Of a stretch of DNA of 64,000 bases, positions 4,560 to 64,000 are shown in pieces. Source of the stretch: Coemansia sp. RSA 487 (taxonomy: Eukaryota; Kickxellomycota; Kickxellomycetes; Kickxellales; Kickxellaceae). The DNA lies in assembly GCA_027577595.1 (NCBI GenBank), contig JANBRJ010000028.1:1-64000 (forward strand), written 5' to 3'. The notes under the pieces were generated by a model. That model was not told the origin of the DNA, did no database searches, and was given only the letters and a program-made list of their open reading frames with translations. How positions within the stretch are numbered: position 1 is the stretch's first letter; each line of letters starts with the position of its first letter. Position numbers and translations under genes: made by a program.

Positions 4560-6180
4560 TACTATATGATGTAAGTCGATCTGTTGTTGGCTCATCAGCC
4601 AAGAAGGCACTACAGAGACCCGACAATAGACTAGCATTCCTTGATTCCTGTGAGTTCGTCAAGTTGAGCTGCAACCAGCTTCAGAGAAGTTGGGAGAGAA
4701 AATTTCCCAAAATTCGTATTCTGCATGCCTGTGTTGCCAAGAAGGCGAAACATAGCTGATTTCTGGTTCAGAATGATCACACTCTTGCTCTGGACAATGT
4801 ATATGCAAATGCAAATGATAATCAGGCACAAGCCAATATCCTTCATCCAGAATTCAGCAGACAAATACAATGCCCATCTGGCTGCACAGGTGAGTACTGA
4901 GACACTTGTTCCAGACATATGGTGCTTGCTTGGATCCATAGAAAGCGGCTCAGCTTGCAGATATCAGACTTACGATTATCATCCACTCTATCTGAAAACT
5001 CATCAATGTACAGGTCTTTGCCAATGCCATGATGAAAAAAGGAGTCTTGACATCCATGCTGTGAGATGAGACCGAACAGTGTTGCAAGAGCAAGAGTGGT
5101 ATGAATCGTCTTACACTACACAACTGGAGCAAACATGTCATTGTAGTCGAGACTAGAGCGCTGTTGGAATCCTCCAACCACATGGTAACCCCCTGTACAA
5201 TGGCAGAACACCATCGCCACAGGATTTAATGACAAACACCTAGCATGTGATTAGAATATGCATCCAAGGAGCCTTGGGAGCAACTTTCAGCACATTATTG
5301 TCAATCGACTCTAGCTCTGCCATAGTCGCCTCTTGCCACCTTGATGGGTCTTTGGATCGCATTGTAACTATGTATGAGGGCAGTCCGCTGACACTTGCAT
5401 TGCTTAGGAACATGTCACTATCGTCTTGATCCTCATCTCCTAGTGTCCAGCATGCCAGCTCGTGTTTGTTCTGATAACCGCTTCTCAAAGACTTTCTGTG
5501 ATCAGTGGTGTGTCGATGCTGTCTGAAGTAGCTGCTTCCTCTTGATCCAAGCTACTTTCAGGCTGCTCAGCAGAATTGCCTGCAAATTTAAAGACCGTTG
5601 ATGCCAAATTGGAAGAGAACGTGCTCAGTTGAACATAAGGAAGAAACTTTAGCAGAATGGGAAATGGGAAAAGCGTCTGTAAGAATATACCATGATGGGA
5701 TCTGAGAATTCTACCAGCGTCTAGATTATGAAAACTATACTTGCAGTACTCTGCTCCAAAATACACGCAAGACTGGGAACGTTTACCAAGCTTTTTGCGC
5801 AGCTCAAGAGGAACTGAAACCTCAGCAAGGCAACCAAATGTGTGCATGTATTTAGCTGAAACGCATGCACCTAGATATTGTACAGGCGTCTTTACCTAGG
5901 GATCTGCTTTAGGAAGTGACTGTAAAGGAATGTGGTATGTTCATGAGTAAAATGCCAAATAGAGATACCAACACAAGCACACAATGGCATAGAATTGGTG
6001 GGTTTGATAGCTGTGCGACTGAATCGCTCAGCAATGTCATTTTGCTGGGGAGAATAAGGAGACAAAGCGGTATGTGAAATCTCGACACAAAATGCCTTAT
6101 GAACATTGGAGGATATCCTAAACTATAAAAATATAACACGTGTGGGAAATATTTGGGCCACCAAATCTGCCTCACTACAT
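4560..6180 (-). mobile_element. Ty1/copia-type LTR retrotransposon fossil
   Basis: A decayed pol region of the Ty1/copia superfamily on the minus strand. Three landmarks lie in the expected order. The end of the integrase core (SPYSPQQNDIAERF) is near 6,020-6,090. The integrase-to-RT linker (MHTFGCLAEV and KRSQSCVYFG) is near 5,740-5,850. Start-of-RT signatures (WQEATMAELESID near 5,310-5,350 and DYNDMFAPV near 5,130-5,160) follow. The copy is broken many times and looks old. No LTRs or flanking duplications could be delimited, so both limits are approximate and the element may extend toward 7,000. Confidence 0.75.
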
Positions 6181-7585
6181 TAAATCAACTGGCGATTGAC
6201 GAGCACTGGAAGCTGTAATTCATCTGTTACATTTAGACTATAGAGCACGGCATCTGTACCAATCTTTAGTGGCCTTAGGGAGATAAAGATGGGGTGGATG
6301 CTGAAGGAGGTTTCAGTGAATTACTAAACCATCTATTTTATTGCCTTTTGTAAAGATTCTAGGGTAAAGCCGATCTTCATATTCACTTGAGGGATATAGC
6401 AACTCATTAGATGATTGCTATGATATTTGGTGTTAAAACTAATATGACATTGAGATTGAAAGCCAAATGTTTAAAGCAACTTGAAAATATAAAGAATACT
6501 AAGCAGCTAAGTAACAAGATAAGAATTAGAAAAGGTACTAGTTGTGATGTTGTTTCATTTGTTGACATTTGTGCAGATATATCAGTCCATGTTGACCAGC
6601 ACATAAAAGTGTAACATTTTAGAAAACGTGATATGGTAGTAATATGCTCAAATTTCGACAAACATATTTAGTAAATGGCTACTGAGTGAGTGGTGTTGGC
6701 CATCTGTTCTAGTGGGAAAAAGAACAGCACAAGCAGTGTCTACATATACCAAACAGGCAAGTTAGTGAGGGACTGGCGCTACTCGACAGCCATCTGTACC
6801 ACAATGGATGGCGAGCAAACAATTAAGTAGCGTCTATAGCGCACAGTCCACTCGGTGACCAGTGCCACCTAACCGACACTACAAGTAAGTGAGCAGAATC
6901 TAGTGGTGATGATTTGCTAGCTAGAAAATATGTTGGGCTTATACATGGGTGATAACAGTATTCAGAAATCCAGCTGGAAATAACTAGGCACTTGTGCACC
7001 AAACAAGTTCTACCCCCAATAAATCGCTTTACTAATGCAGGGACCTGCCACAAAGCTGGAATTTTAAACTAGCTGAAAAGGTAAATCCTGAATGGTCATG
7101 AGCAAAAAATACATGCATCAATCTTAAATTCTTGAGGATTGTGGTTGAGATAACAACCAAAAGCCAGCCCGATTATACTTTCGGCTTGACGCTAAAGCAT
7201 AAAATATTTTTCATTTTTACAAAGTGTTTTTCCTTGGTGTATTTTTACGCCAATCAGTCTCTTCCTGTTGACAGGAGCAGTCCGTATCCTACTGGCTGGA
7301 TATAATTTTTTGTATTATTTAATTTATTTCCGTTTCTGCCTGTCGTCATCCCGCTTTCTCAACTAGGACTTTACTAATTTTTGTCATCTGATATCAGTCC
7401 GCAAAGTCTTCTTGGTATAAGAAGAAATGGCGGGTTCCAAACATCCGCTTATATATTTCTGCTACGGTTTGAAGGTGCAAGCAATCGTCCCTTTTCATTT
7501 TTCTACCACTTTTTTACCCATCGCCTTTTTATCTTTAATACTATATAAATTGGGCAATCTCCAATAGACCTGTCAATCATCAATA
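6181..7585. other. AT-rich accessory spacer
   Basis: No host gene is recognisable. Short frames on both strands show no conserved domain. The left part could be further retroelement remnant; the last few hundred bases are the upstream region of the P450 gene. Confidence 0.4.
7542..7550 (+). promoter_or_regulatory. TATA-like element before the P450 gene
   Basis: TATATAAAT lies about 36 nt before the chosen ATG. The position fits a TATA box only if the leader is very short, so this is a weak candidate based on sequence alone. Confidence 0.3.
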
Positions 7586-9208
7586 ATGGTCCTTTCGAAA
7601 CTATATGGATTTGTGCTTCCGAGCAATGGGGTTGTGGATATTCTGGCACAAATATATGCAGCTAGTAGAGATACACGTTCGTGCATCATTGCGTTGCTAT
7701 CTGTGATTGGTACCACATTTGCTTACCGTATCATATACTCCATAATATTTTCACCACTACGCAGTATTCGTGGTCCTTGGCTTGCGAGGCTTACTTCACT
7801 ACGCGCTGATATCCTTATTGCATCTGGATTTATGTGGCGACTAGCACGTAAGGATTTTGAAGAGTATGGCGATTTGTTTGTAACCATGCCCGATGCTGTC
7901 ACTGTCTGCGATCCTGACGATATTCGTATGCTTCTGGGAAACACTGCTGTCAATAAAGCCCCGTTCTATCGCATTCTTAAATTTACAGGTATTGAAAACA
8001 CATTAAGCTACCAGGATAATGCTAGCGCATTGGTCCGCCATCGGCAGATTGGTCCATTTCTCCGATCCGCATATCTGTCAAAGATGGAAGGCACGATAAT
8101 GCGCGAGGGTGTTCTTTCAATCAAGAGCAAGTGGGATAAACTGCTTGATGAAAGCCCAAATGGAGTGGTCGAGGTAAACTATTGTGACGATTTTATCATT
8201 GGCGTCTTTGGTGTTATCTCAACACTTGTGCATGGAAGAAGGCTCGAGGAGCTCAACAACAGTGAAAGCGCAGCTACCTGGATTAAAAAGTCGCTTTCAT
8301 TCCTAGGAACACGTTCCATGGTGCAAATGTTGCCTTCATTTATAAGCAAGCCATTGCTTTCCCCATGGGAGCACTACTACACTCGCCTTAGCATGTACAC
8401 ACACGAATCAATTTCCAAACGTACAAGATATCTGAAGGAGATTGAGAATAGCAACAAGGACAGCGAAAGACCAGCAGACTTACTACAGGCATTTATTGAT
8501 GCGGAAGACGCAGAATCCAAGTGCAAGATGAGCTACGGCGAAATTCATAGCGAATGTCTACTAATGATGCAAGCTGGTACAGACACAACTTCACAGACAA
8601 TTGCAACAACTGTGCATCTGCTGCTGCTGCATCCGCTATACCACAAAAGAGCAGTGGAGGAGATCCGTTCACAGTTTGACTCAGATCATGTCATAACCTA
8701 CAACGAGTGTCGCGAAAAGCTGCCATTTCTAGAGGCTTGCATCTTTGAGTCGCTGCGTCTTGAGCCAGTCACAGGTGGCATACTTGCGCGTGTGTCGCCA
8801 AAGGGTGGTGTGACTATCAAGGGCCATTTTATACCAGAAGGAACATCAATCATGGTCAATCTTGCAGCAGCTAATCGCCATGGCAGGCACTGGGAAAGGC
8901 CCTACGAGTTTGACCCCACACGCTTCCTTGGCAACAGGGAAGCTCGCAGCAAGATCATGACATTTAGCAGTGGTAGGCGAACCTGTCCTGGTCGCCAGCT
9001 GGCATGGTGGGAGATGCTTACGATACTTGCAAATATTCTCAAGGATTACGATCTAAAGATGCCATCCGACTGTGCGAATTTTGGCCCTGGTATGCTTGAC
9101 AAAAACGGATATCCAAAGACTATGGACTGGCGCATGTTTATTACCATCAAGCCGAAAGACTCTGATCGCGACTGTCGTGTTCTTGTCTCCAGGGCAAAAA
9201 CTGCTTAA
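7586..9208 (+). CDS. Cytochrome P450 monooxygenase
   Basis: A complete 540-residue microsomal-type P450, normal length for the fold. A hydrophobic N-terminal anchor lies at about residues 33-57, followed by the Pro/Gly hinge SPLRSIRGPW. The oxygen-binding I-helix motif AGTDTTS is at about 330-336. The K-helix ExxR is in FESLRLEP. The haem loop FSSGRRTCPGRQLA carries the iron-ligating Cys at about residue 467. It should need a cytochrome P450 reductase and sit on the ER facing the cytosol. The start is ATG and the gene is one exon. It is not next to obvious pathway genes, so the substrate cannot be predicted. The FDPTRF-to-haem spacing is typical of fungal class II enzymes. I cannot assign a CYP family from sequence alone. 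Confidence 0.93.
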   Translation: MVLSKLYGFVLPSNGVVDILAQIYAASRDTRSCIIALLSVIGTTFAYRIIYSIIFSPLRSIRGPWLARLTSLRADILIASGFMWRLARKDFEEYGDLFVTMPDAVTVCDPDDIRMLLGNTAVNKAPFYRILKFTGIENTLSYQDNASALVRHRQIGPFLRSAYLSKMEGTIMREGVLSIKSKWDKLLDESPNGVVEVNYCDDFIIGVFGVISTLVHGRRLEELNNSESAATWIKKSLSFLGTRSMVQMLPSFISKPLLSPWEHYYTRLSMYTHESISKRTRYLKEIENSNKDSERPADLLQAFIDAEDAESKCKMSYGEIHSECLLMMQAGTDTTSQTIATTVHLLLLHPLYHKRAVEEIRSQFDSDHVITYNECREKLPFLEACIFESLRLEPVTGGILARVSPKGGVTIKGHFIPEGTSIMVNLAAANRHGRHWERPYEFDPTRFLGNREARSKIMTFSSGRRTCPGRQLAWWEMLTILANILKDYDLKMPSDCANFGPGMLDKNGYPKTMDWRMFITIKPKDSDRDCRVLVSRAKTA

Positions 9209-61670: not shown

Positions 61671-61991
61671 TTGCTGTAATTTGCAAAATTAGTTGTGTCG
61701 AATAAGAAGGATATATACGCGTCGAATGGTGAAAGGTTTGCGGTGGCAATAGCGCATTTTGCGTTCCAAGAAAAGTCGTTTGTGCAGGTGTGGGATATGC
61801 GTCAGTGCAAAGTGGGAAAACAAAAAAACAAATGATTAGCACTGTTGTCAAAAAGCAGTCGCAGATGTTTATCTCTTCAGCTCTCATTTAAGTACCTACC
61901 TGCAAAAGGGACAGCATCCTGTCCTAGAACTAGGATTCCTAGAACTAGGGTTTGCCGCGGCTATAACCTTGGCTGAATTTTGTGGTGGCTG
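61671..61991 (-). ncRNA. Candidate Fanzor guide-RNA/right-end region
   Basis: The 321 bp after the Fanzor stop match the 313-bp flank of copy 1. Known Fanzor and TnpB systems place the guide RNA over the 3' end and terminal region of the element. Conserved blocks include TTCAGCCAAGGTTATAGCCG, TTTTCTTGGAACGCAAAATG and a doubled TTCGACGC. Transcription is not shown; because the copy is decayed it may be inert. Confidence 0.4.
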
Positions 61992-63063
61992 TTATTTGTT
62001 CGTTCTCGTCGTCTTCGGCACAATCATCTTCCTTTTCTTCTTGGGCTGCTGTTCATCGGTGGTAGCGATGGCTGCAGGCTGACTGCGAAAAAAGCGCCCT
62101 GGAGTCTTGCCGTGATCGCGAAGGTCATGAAAAATATGCCTGAAGTTGAGAACGGCTGAGAGATCTCAGCTATACATGTGTGAACGAGAAGTCAAAGCAC
62201 CATCCACTTACACGGGCTCCATACATAGTTCGTTGGTGCACTTAAGGAGACCGTGGCAAAGCACTTCTTTCATCTTCTTGCGTTGGTAGGGGCGGGAGTT
62301 GGGAATTTTCAGGAACTTCTTGAGAGTGCCGGTGAGGCAGTTCGGGCAAGTCTTTGATATTCTGGATTTGTTAATAAGATAGACTCGGCACTCTTTCTTC
62401 CTCAGCATTCGCCGAAATCCGACCCCGTATAGGCTCATGGTAGAGAGCCATTGGCGCACTCCAGTCACCTAAGATCACAGTGGGCTTTTCATCGTCGCAT
62501 ATTGCCCAAATGCACTTTGCTAACTGTTCATCGGCTTGTTTCTGCTTGATGTGGGCAGATTGCCGAAGATTGCAATGAATTGGCTGAGGGTTGTTCTGAT
62601 GCTTGCTGGCAGTCATGGTGTTCATGTAGAATCTACTCAGCACTGGCCAGACAGCAGCACGCGTCCTGACATATTGCTCATATTTATCTGGCAATATCGA
62701 TGTGCACGAAAAAGCAGCCAACCTAGCCTCGGCAGCCTTGATTTCGTTGCTGTCTGGCTGCTCTTTCTTGATCTTTTCCCTCAGCTTGCGATAGCGGGTT
62801 GTCCGGGTTTCTTTAGCCTTCTGGCTCCGTGTGTATCGGAAAAGAGCTTTCTCCTCAGAGGTGCTTTCATCCGTCATGCCAAAGACAATGTCCTGGCGAC
62901 TCGGATCCATGAAGATTGAGTTTTTCATGTTGGCCAGTTGCTCTAGCGAAAGCTTGTGGATATATGTGAACTCACCCGACTTCTTTTCTCCTGGCTTCTT
63001 TCGCTTTCTGGGCTTCCTGGGCTTCTTGGGCTGGTCCTCTTCTGGCAGGGAGTCAGTAGCCAT
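61992..63063 (-). pseudogene. Fanzor (eukaryotic TnpB-like) RNA-guided nuclease, degraded
   Basis: Remnant of a Fanzor1-type nuclease. An intact N-terminal stretch begins at 63,063 with MATDSLPEEDQP and a Lys/Pro-rich segment. RuvC-I reads IFMDPSRQDIVF with Asp53; families usually have DPG. FRYTRSQKAKETRT and YRKLREKIKKEQ form the following helices. ILGDWSAP lies near 198-204. Past residue 214 the reading moves to another frame: FRRMLRKKECRVYLINK, then the zinc ribbon CPNC with KEVLCHGLLKCTNELC. Where Fanzors show LIDEFRTS the sequence is LINKSRIS, so the alternative catalytic Glu is gone. Further stops interrupt RuvC-III, although DLSAVLNFRHIF remains. Not a working nuclease. The N-terminal recognition lobe is absent. 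Confidence 0.75.
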
Positions 63064-63619
63064 TGTTATAAAAATATAACGACATATAATTAAAACGTGA
63101 ATTCAAAATGGAACCCAGTTCCTTCACATTTATTGCTAGTGGAATCAAGGGTATTTATTCATGTAAACGCCTATTAAATAAATATATGAAACCTGATATG
63201 TGAATATGATATGTAAACATGATACATGACTAACAGTTGTGATAATGATTCAGCTTACAAGTTGTTAAACTGTCACAAAATGATCAGCTCATGCTGAGCC
63301 AATCATATTGTTGGTAAACATAAATTGTATGCTTACCAATCATCATAAACCTTAGTAAATTTTTGACTTTGATAAAATGCCACTGTTTTATCAAATAAGT
63401 GAATGAGGAACTTCAGTTCTGTCAAGATTTTTATTTGTAACAACAACCGTCATATTCACGTATCAACATTTCTGGATCACACATTAGATTGCCTAATATT
63501 TATCACAGCTACAAAATAAAATTAGAAACGTTGGTTATTTTAACTGAAGGAAGGGGCTTTCAAATTATCCACAGCAATCAGAGGATTGAGTACAGGCTTT
63601 GTTTGTCAAAATAGAGGAT
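63064..63619. other. Spacer between mariner transposase and Fanzor, with inverted repeats
   Basis: AT-rich, no gene. Two hairpin-forming repeats occur: an imperfect 16-bp inverted pair at 63,307-63,322 and 63,328-63,343 around TTGGTAA/TTACCAA. A perfect 10-bp pair TTTGATAAAA/TTTTATCAAA lies at 63,368-63,377 and 63,386-63,395. These may mark the end of the mariner element or be terminator-like structures. Confidence 0.5.
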
Positions 63620-64000
63620 TTAAAGGCTTGTTTCTCCGGCTTTGCAGCGAGAGAAGAATGTTATAGAATGTCTGATGTAACCTTGGCACTCTGACATTAT
63701 CACCTTGCTGACTGCCTCGCATATTCTATCACTGAGTCTGTCGTATGCTGTAAGCGCTGTTCTGCAAACACCTGGTTTTACTCTGGCCTGAAGCTCCTCA
63801 ATGGGATTTAGAAAGGGTGGATATGGAGGCAGATATAGGCACCTGTATCCTCTGTTTTCTATTGGGGCTTGAATGGCTAATGGCATGTAGGTTGGAGCAT
63901 TGTCTGTGATAATGATTGGCATGCGAGTTGCATGGTGAGTCACAATTATAGGTTTAATTACTGTAGTGTTTTGTATGGGTACAAAACCCAGATTGTTCAT
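63620..64000 (-). CDS. Mariner/Tc1-like transposase, C-terminal DDE part (partial)
   Basis: Open minus-strand frame reaching the right edge; 126 residues are visible and the 5' part lies outside. The catalytic core is clear: IIITDNAP contains the second Asp and LPPYPPFLNPIEELQARVK contains the third acidic residue of the Tc1/mariner/IS630 DDE fold. The C-terminus runs on to a stop at 63,620. Terminal inverted repeats are not identified. The visible part has no frame break, so it could be intact at least here. It is upstream of and on the same strand as the Fanzor relic, the arrangement expected of a shared mariner-borne element. Confidence 0.8.
   Translation of the reverse strand: MNNLGFVPIQNTTVIKPIIVTHHATRMPIIITDNAPTYMPLAIQAPIENRGYRCLYLPPYPPFLNPIEELQARVKPGVCRTALTAYDRLSDRICEAVSKVIMSECQGYIRHSITFFSRCKAGETSL

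Follow-up and report, generated by a model that had tools for sequence, protein, structure and literature searches.

Fanzor, the eukaryotic relative of the CRISPR nucleases, is not new as a cargo of mariner transposons: Bao and Jurka reported such elements in 2013 (PMC3627910), as the first-pass annotation of the locus reported here had rightly indicated, and Mariners are named among the hosts of Fanzor1 in the available text of PMC10711439 as well. According to the accessible portions of the 2013 paper, the elements PUl-1, PUl-4 and PGv-1 hold a mariner-like transposase and a Fanzor1 within inverted repeats bordered by TA duplications, related elements hold a Fanzor only, and Fanzor1 proteins follow the motif D-X(125,275)-[TS][TS]XX-[C4 zinc finger]-X(5,50)-RD. 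A second reference system is Spu-1 from Spizellomyces punctatus, the source of SpuFz1, for which the available text of Saito et al. (2023; PMC10432273) gives a 75-nt scaffold behind the stop codon, 42 Fanzor loci and 134 ghost loci; this scaffold extends across the right repeat, and the DNA past the repeat serves as the guide. The catalytic residues of SpuFz1 (D383, E541, and D606) are named in the accessible part of PMC11423790. In a search that left most subscription papers outside, we found no literature joining Fanzor with Coemansia.

The window analyzed here (the whole 64,000-nucleotide stretch, bases 1 to 64,000 of contig C28 from the 17.8-Mb, 184-contig assembly of Coemansia sp. RSA 487) ends within such an element. 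The whole element occupies positions 61,674 to 64,633 of the contig, about 2.96 kb, and encloses a transposase and, downstream of it, a Fanzor, both on the minus strand, between inverted repeats of about 108 bp (Table 1). In L009, the locus that represents the window copy, the two repeats (positions 4676 to 4782 and 7525 to 7631) are 93% alike over 108 aligned columns. In gene content, repeats and TA duplications the element resembles PUl-1, PUl-4 and PGv-1 as they are described in the available text; it differs from them in its host and in a copy number that permits selection to be compared between the two genes. It is therefore a new family of a known kind, since Bao and Jurka had already made mariner-borne Fanzor1 known. 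Judged by its sequence, the window copy is dead. Its Fanzor lacks residues 1 to 378 of 733, with about 430 bp of other sequence in their place, and the remainder carries one frameshift, two in-frame stops and a lysine for the catalytic glutamate. Within the stretch that fills this gap, positions 63,393 to 63,441 are a 49-bp partial copy of a repeat that also interrupts the transposase, and positions 63,288 to 63,344 are family sequence found in L011, L014, and L016, too. The interrupting repeat, 146 bp long (63,905 to 64,050), shares 93 to 97% identity with the inverted repeats of another element, 1.45 kb in length (L019, 3642 to 5091). A stretch 75 to 83% similar to it, in reversed orientation, lies between the transposase and the Fanzor of sister elements.

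Table 1. Positions of the features of the element in the window, and of the family copies that end at the edge of the conserved block
Feature	Position	Strand	Basis or remark
Fanzor-side terminal inverted repeat	61,674-61,782		repeat alignment
Partner (left) inverted repeat	contig 64,525-64,633, beyond the window		repeat alignment
TG dinucleotide adjoining the Fanzor-side end	61,672-61,673		opposite end, outside the window, has TA
Splice-donor-like GTAGGT immediately 3' of the scaffold; putative role	61,894-61,899	-	sequence
Putative guide-RNA (omega RNA) scaffold, 89 nt, directly 3' of the Fanzor stop	61,900-61,988	-	conservation in 18 right ends
24-nt scaffold core	61,953-61,976		within the putative scaffold; 90 genomic core sites
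Fanzor1 remnant	61,992-63,063	-	about residues 379-733 of the 733-aa C19 paralogue
Stretch without match to the C1 element	63,064-63,490		occupies the place of C1 intergenic DNA and the Fanzor N-terminal half
Tc1/mariner DDE transposase remnant, 3' part	63,620-63,904	-	DDE_3 match
Insert from another repeat family, window part	63,905-64,000		reaches contig 64,050
Copies ending at the block edge	L023 (C7:244,659), L039 (C7:194,733), L061 (C2:212,004), L071 (C25), L072 (C26), L078 (C72)

Given how scrambled the window copy is, with other sequence between its genes and a 146-bp insert in its transposase, it could be asked whether two unrelated insertions have simply left a mariner relic near a Fanzor relic by chance, with no common element. 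The distribution of the family speaks strongly against this: a single pair of inverted repeats surrounds both genes, the order repeat, transposase, Fanzor, repeat recurs in the elements at C19, C1, C71, and C78, further transposase-Fanzor pairs in the same orientation are found at C7, C5, C23, C10, C82, C52, and C140, and the whole unit thus recurs at unlinked places. We consider a chance neighborhood extremely improbable. The mariner-borne Fanzor element proposed by the first-pass annotation is borne out by the same evidence, including the repeats, which that annotation had said would count against it if they surrounded the transposase alone. The sister elements measure about 3.9 to 4.0 kb at C1, C71, and C78 and 6.44 kb at C19. 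The C19 copy combines a 733-aa Fanzor and a DED triad with TA on both flanks. The TA duplications expected around both genes are thus present in C19, but the window copy shows them in part: read inward, it is flanked by TG at the Fanzor end and by TA at the opposite one, and the C1 copy by TA and TG. Once truncated right ends and the left ends of L016, L052, and L056 are set aside, the ends judged readable number 20 on the left and 15 on the right; TA or TG, read inward, lies outside 19 and 13 of them, respectively. This variation at both ends looks as if the duplicated TA frequently underwent an A-to-G transition. A TAM bias was considered and dropped, with A at position -3 in 11 of 20 left and 6 of 15 right flanks (Fisher p 0.50). 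At C19, C81, and C116 (L047, L041, and L046), about 1.5 kb of foreign sequence common to all three follows the transposase at the same junction, and parts of it occur at C99 (L045); from its frames, read by eye, it looks like a fragment of a Ty3/gypsy pol gene. Either the element spread after taking it up, or insertion occurred repeatedly at one spot.

The transposase of the window was earlier read as a DDE enzyme running from 63,620 past the end at 64,000. The DDE_3 profile supports this reading (32.5 bits; cut-off, 28.6), but the first 32 residues of the frame (63,905 to 64,000) belong to the insert; the transposase match picks up again near 64,051 and ends at about 64,332 of the contig. Besides being split by the insert, this copy lacks residues 1 to 125 of the 231 that were mapped, including the first catalytic aspartate. 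Better preserved relatives score higher: the C81 copy reaches 80.7 bits against the same DDE_3 cut-off, and the family transposase gives 79.4 bits with the IS630 model, below that model's cut-off of 100. In the C81 reference, 34 residues separate the last two catalytic residues (D34E). A search of the genome with the C1 transposase returned 71 matches, which represent pieces rather than elements. Most of residues 1 to 125 are missing from 17 of the 24 mapped transposase copies and kept in 7, six of which have D, D, and E all present; these counts refer to the 231 mapped residues, which are not necessarily the whole protein. With a DDE_3-type transposase, terminal inverted repeats and TA target duplication, the family can be placed, on sequence criteria, in the Tc1/mariner (IS630-Tc1-mariner) group.

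The Fanzor remnant, too, lies where it had been placed, downstream and on the same strand. Its frame at 62,371 to 63,102 matches Fanzor1 from Parasitella parasitica (E = 8.2e-15) and from Spizellomyces (E = 2.6e-5), and the 733-aa paralogue from C19 matches PpFz1 (PDB 9cf0) with an E value of 2.7e-103. Of the profile searches run on the two genes, the one with DDE_3 succeeded, whereas the Pfam TnpB/Cas12f zinc-ribbon model stayed under its cut-off of 26.3 bits for both the window piece (12.8 bits) and the intact paralogue (20.2 bits), so that the Fanzor assignment rests on the matches to Fanzor1 sequences. PpFz1 is the best solved relative of the C19 paralogue and, by manual mapping, has the same catalytic triad; its chain residues 988 to 1096 have no counterpart in the alignment and presumably include the RuvC insertion (FRI) described in the available text of PMC11423790. 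In the same manner, D428, E608, and D676 of the C19 paralogue were mapped manually to D383, E541, and D606 of SpuFz1. By eye, the paralogue also fits the Fanzor1 motif (D428, TSKT, then four cysteines, and RD at 675 and 676), and the window copy fails it, since it has IS for TS and a stop codon in place of the R of RD. The GDWS noted earlier in the window Fanzor was read correctly and occurs in SpuFz1 as well; the sister copies whose sequences were inspected have GNWS instead. Of the 22 mapped copies, 19 extend over the three triad sites, and 14 of these read DED; the window copy and L030 read D, K, D, and the misses in L022, L027, and L031 are out-of-frame stretches.

A genome search with the window Fanzor gave 63 matches, again pieces, which include two more distant Fanzor groups. 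The full-length copies that the first-pass annotation had suggested looking for exist: in five of the 22 mapped Fanzors (C19, C71, C60, C5:39,303, and C82) a single stop-free frame extends over nearly the whole length. The C140 copy has an open frame cut by the contig end, and the other 16 are broken or partial. Related annotated proteins occur in Coemansia sp. RSA 487, 986, 1646, 1813, and 1843; that from RSA 1813, a hypothetical protein of 733 aa, is identical over the aligned 96% of the query. Another, from RSA 1646 (P0043), carries an MFS transporter domain (PF07690); its alignment covers 6% of the Fanzor query, with 93% identity, and this combination is perhaps a gene-model fusion.

The genome also holds another Fanzor1 family, which shares about 40% identity with the one described so far, at C113, C23, C101, C54, C66, C81, C41, and C65. 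Its eight long copies are 81 to 100% identical to the query and have frames of 675 to 816 aa, those at C41 and C65 with internal stops. In one of them (L058, 1487 to 3712, corresponding to C113:40,286 to 42,511), an intact Fanzor lies between host genes, and no mariner repeat was found in this locus when one was looked for. We considered a domesticated host Fanzor at C113 and rejected it: seven full-length relatives are 81 to 91% identical, and the homology between C113 and C23 ends sharply on the right, about 116 bp past the stop. Judging by sequence, the group appears to be a second mobile family. A weak DDE_3 match (26.7 bits, below the cut-off) is found some 1 kb ahead of the C54 copy. Open frames of up to 748 to 902 aa at C29:4679, C18:47477, and C57:6434, 32 to 37% identical to the window Fanzor, may form a third Fanzor group.

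Do both genes of these elements matter to them equally? We fitted a codon model to 14 paired elements, on each gene's own tree, and obtained an omega of 0.46 for Fanzor and 0.95 for residues 126 to 231 of the transposase. When omega was fixed at 1 and compared with the best value (a grid of fixed omega and kappa), the likelihood fell by 116 log-likelihood units for Fanzor and by 0.18 for the transposase. These omegas average over trees in which broken copies predominate, and the transposase is represented by a short segment. However, Fanzor windows matched to the length of that segment stay low (four windows of 106 codons from 10 to 13 paired elements, L009 left out; omega, 0.33 to 0.59; cost of omega 1, 9 to 19), and length alone therefore does not cause the contrast. 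In addition, L022, L027, and L031 hold an out-of-frame stretch in their codon maps, which raises the Fanzor omega. Seven longer transposase copies gave an omega of 0.89, with omega 1 costing 0.39. When the data were confined to unbroken frames, five Fanzors gave 0.38 (omega 1 costing 56) and seven transposases 0.70 (omega 1 costing 2.0), making some constraint on the transposase likely. Pairwise medians follow the same direction, at 0.32 for Fanzor (226 pairs) and 0.61 for the transposase (91 pairs), and the two sets have a similar dS (0.27 and 0.24). Purifying selection thus appears to act on the Fanzor frame, whereas the transposase in these elements appears nearly neutral. In the literature, in a search outside of which most subscription papers lay, the combination of Fanzor with purifying selection turned up in a paper on PGBD5 only. 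Alternatively, Fanzor might be a neutral passenger, the DDE enzyme alone spreading the transposon and Fanzor having no part in its persistence. The broken or partial state of 16 of the 22 mapped copies, one more being cut by a contig end, would agree with this, as would the occurrence of Fanzor1 in several unrelated transposon types reported in the accessible part of PMC3627910. A passenger, however, would not be expected to show an omega well under 1 beside a transposase value near 1 in the same elements, nor a conserved noncoding block behind its stop codon, and we regard this alternative as unlikely.

The block in question follows the Fanzor stop and is 75 to 95 nt long. It was delineated from right ends that aligned in 18 of 20 loci chosen independently of it (L022 and L040 gave no long match). 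In a profile of 37 mapped loci, mean pairwise identity is 0.984 for the 20 nt that begin 20 nt past the stop and 0.959 for the last 20 nt of the block, with 0.90 between them, and the later windows up to the element end reach 0.78 to 0.88; for comparison, the first, second and third codon positions of Fanzor in these loci stand at 0.93, 0.92, and 0.857. With up to two mismatches, the 24-nt core occurs at 90 genomic sites (reversed-pattern control, 0), of which 24 have a Fanzor match within 2 kb and 66 have none. Fifteen of these 66 lie less than 1 kb from a contig start, the contig starts having been examined, so a Fanzor could be missing from the assembly there. For six of the 66, longer stretches were retrieved, and all hold coding remnants of the Fanzor C terminus, at C12 joined directly to part of the transposase; they are therefore deletion derivatives, which resemble the ghost loci of Spizellomyces without being equivalent to them. 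Like Spu-1 as portrayed in the available text, the family unites a Fanzor1, a putative scaffold block behind the stop, many Fanzor-less loci and, in some copies, Gypsy/Ty3 pieces; for Spu-1, by contrast, that text reports no transposase between the repeats, and the Coemansia element has one. On these sequence comparisons, the block is probably a guide-RNA scaffold. It might instead be a 3' UTR or a splice element that serves gene expression without any guide-RNA scaffold. This would suit its end, where a splice-donor-like GTRRGT is followed by a branchpoint-like CTAAY, and the lack of compensatory changes, as hairpins are predicted but none of 21 pairs shows two-sided changes (16 sequences of the longer scaffold form). 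Single folds of three scaffold sequences gave z values of -0.62, -3.42, and -2.15, a result that points neither way. Also speaking against a special role for the block, several 25-nt windows in the noncoding DNA upstream of Fanzor reach identities of 0.93 to 0.95 (maximum, 0.947). Against a UTR or splice element, on the other hand, stand the retention of the core at the 66 sites with no Fanzor match within 2 kb and the 75-nt form, which agrees in length and place with the SpuFz1 scaffold as given in the available text of PMC10432273. The UTR or splice element is the less probable reading, though one to be taken seriously.

The putative scaffold departs from that of Spu-1 in where it stops. The scaffold of Spu-1 spans the right repeat, according to the accessible text, whereas the Coemansia block in most copies ends about 225 to 240 nt short of the element end, in CCCTTTTGCAG, and is followed by GTRRGT. 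Among 45 copies inspected, family sequence runs past the block edge in 35 and ends early in 10, of which six end at the edge within one base, each running into different DNA, with both hairpin forms represented; the block thus abuts foreign DNA, as a scaffold of the Spu-1 type would, in these six copies only. The set includes 20 copies picked by an exact core match, and its core conservation is not independent. It also includes C2 and C24, which were added after a pattern search had flagged a non-G base directly behind the edge; C24 proved to continue past it, and if both are omitted, the count is 5 of 43. In an alignment of the 35 continuing copies, setting aside small insertions in L036, L037, and L075, positions 1, 2, 3, 5, and 6 of GTRRGT are shared by 34 or 35 rows, and every row has a purine (A or G) at position 4. 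The CTAAY motif after it has a conservation of 0.91, versus 0.83 for the stretch that precedes it. Across the genome, the base after TGYYYCTTTTGCAG is G in 50 cases and something else in nine, four of which lie beside a core.

It is tempting to speculate that the edge is a splice site: the scaffold would stop short, the 225 to 240 nt that include the inverted repeat would be spliced out between the donor-like edge and an acceptor that lies at the element end or past it, the flanking DNA would serve as the guide, and the six copies ending at the edge would be products of precise intron loss or alternative right ends. If so, RNA ending in ...TTTTGCAG would be joined directly to the flanking DNA of full-length copies. 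We hold this reading to be rather doubtful. The six copies might be due to precise intron loss, to a role of the edge as an alternative end of the transposon, or to deletion between short repeats (CAG to CAG). Two further candidate signs of splicing were discarded. AG is scarce in the roughly 150 nt before the element end; however, the left repeats, which have no splicing role, are equally poor in the equivalent dinucleotide (10 in 1998 nt from 23 left ends versus 5 in 1177 nt from 14 right ends), and the scarcity therefore belongs to the repeat. An A/T variation at the second base of the repeat, considered as an AG acceptor, occurs at both ends (by eye). The text of Saito et al. (2023; PMC10432273) contains “intron” not once and “splic” a single time.

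Taken together, the locus very probably holds a Tc1/mariner-type DNA transposon copy that carries a Fanzor1 and is both dead and internally deleted; its family would be moved and kept as follows. The DDE transposase would move the element into TA sites by cut-and-paste and would mostly be supplied in trans, as suggested by the loss, from most copies, of the part with the first catalytic aspartate; among the 24 transposase copies mapped in the genome, the source of this supply was not found. Fanzor would bind an RNA read from the conserved block behind its own stop codon and, with it, cut sites that have lost the element, whereupon repair would restore the element and copies with a Fanzor would persist. 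Such an advantage in cis would account for purifying selection on Fanzor in elements whose transposase drifts.

Paired frames in many copies within one small genome offer a way to ask why several kinds of transposons keep a Fanzor. The contrast between the two genes points to a benefit that Fanzor brings to the element independently of the transposase in the same copy. If the edge of the scaffold reflects splicing or an alternative end, it would represent a new way of making a guide RNA.
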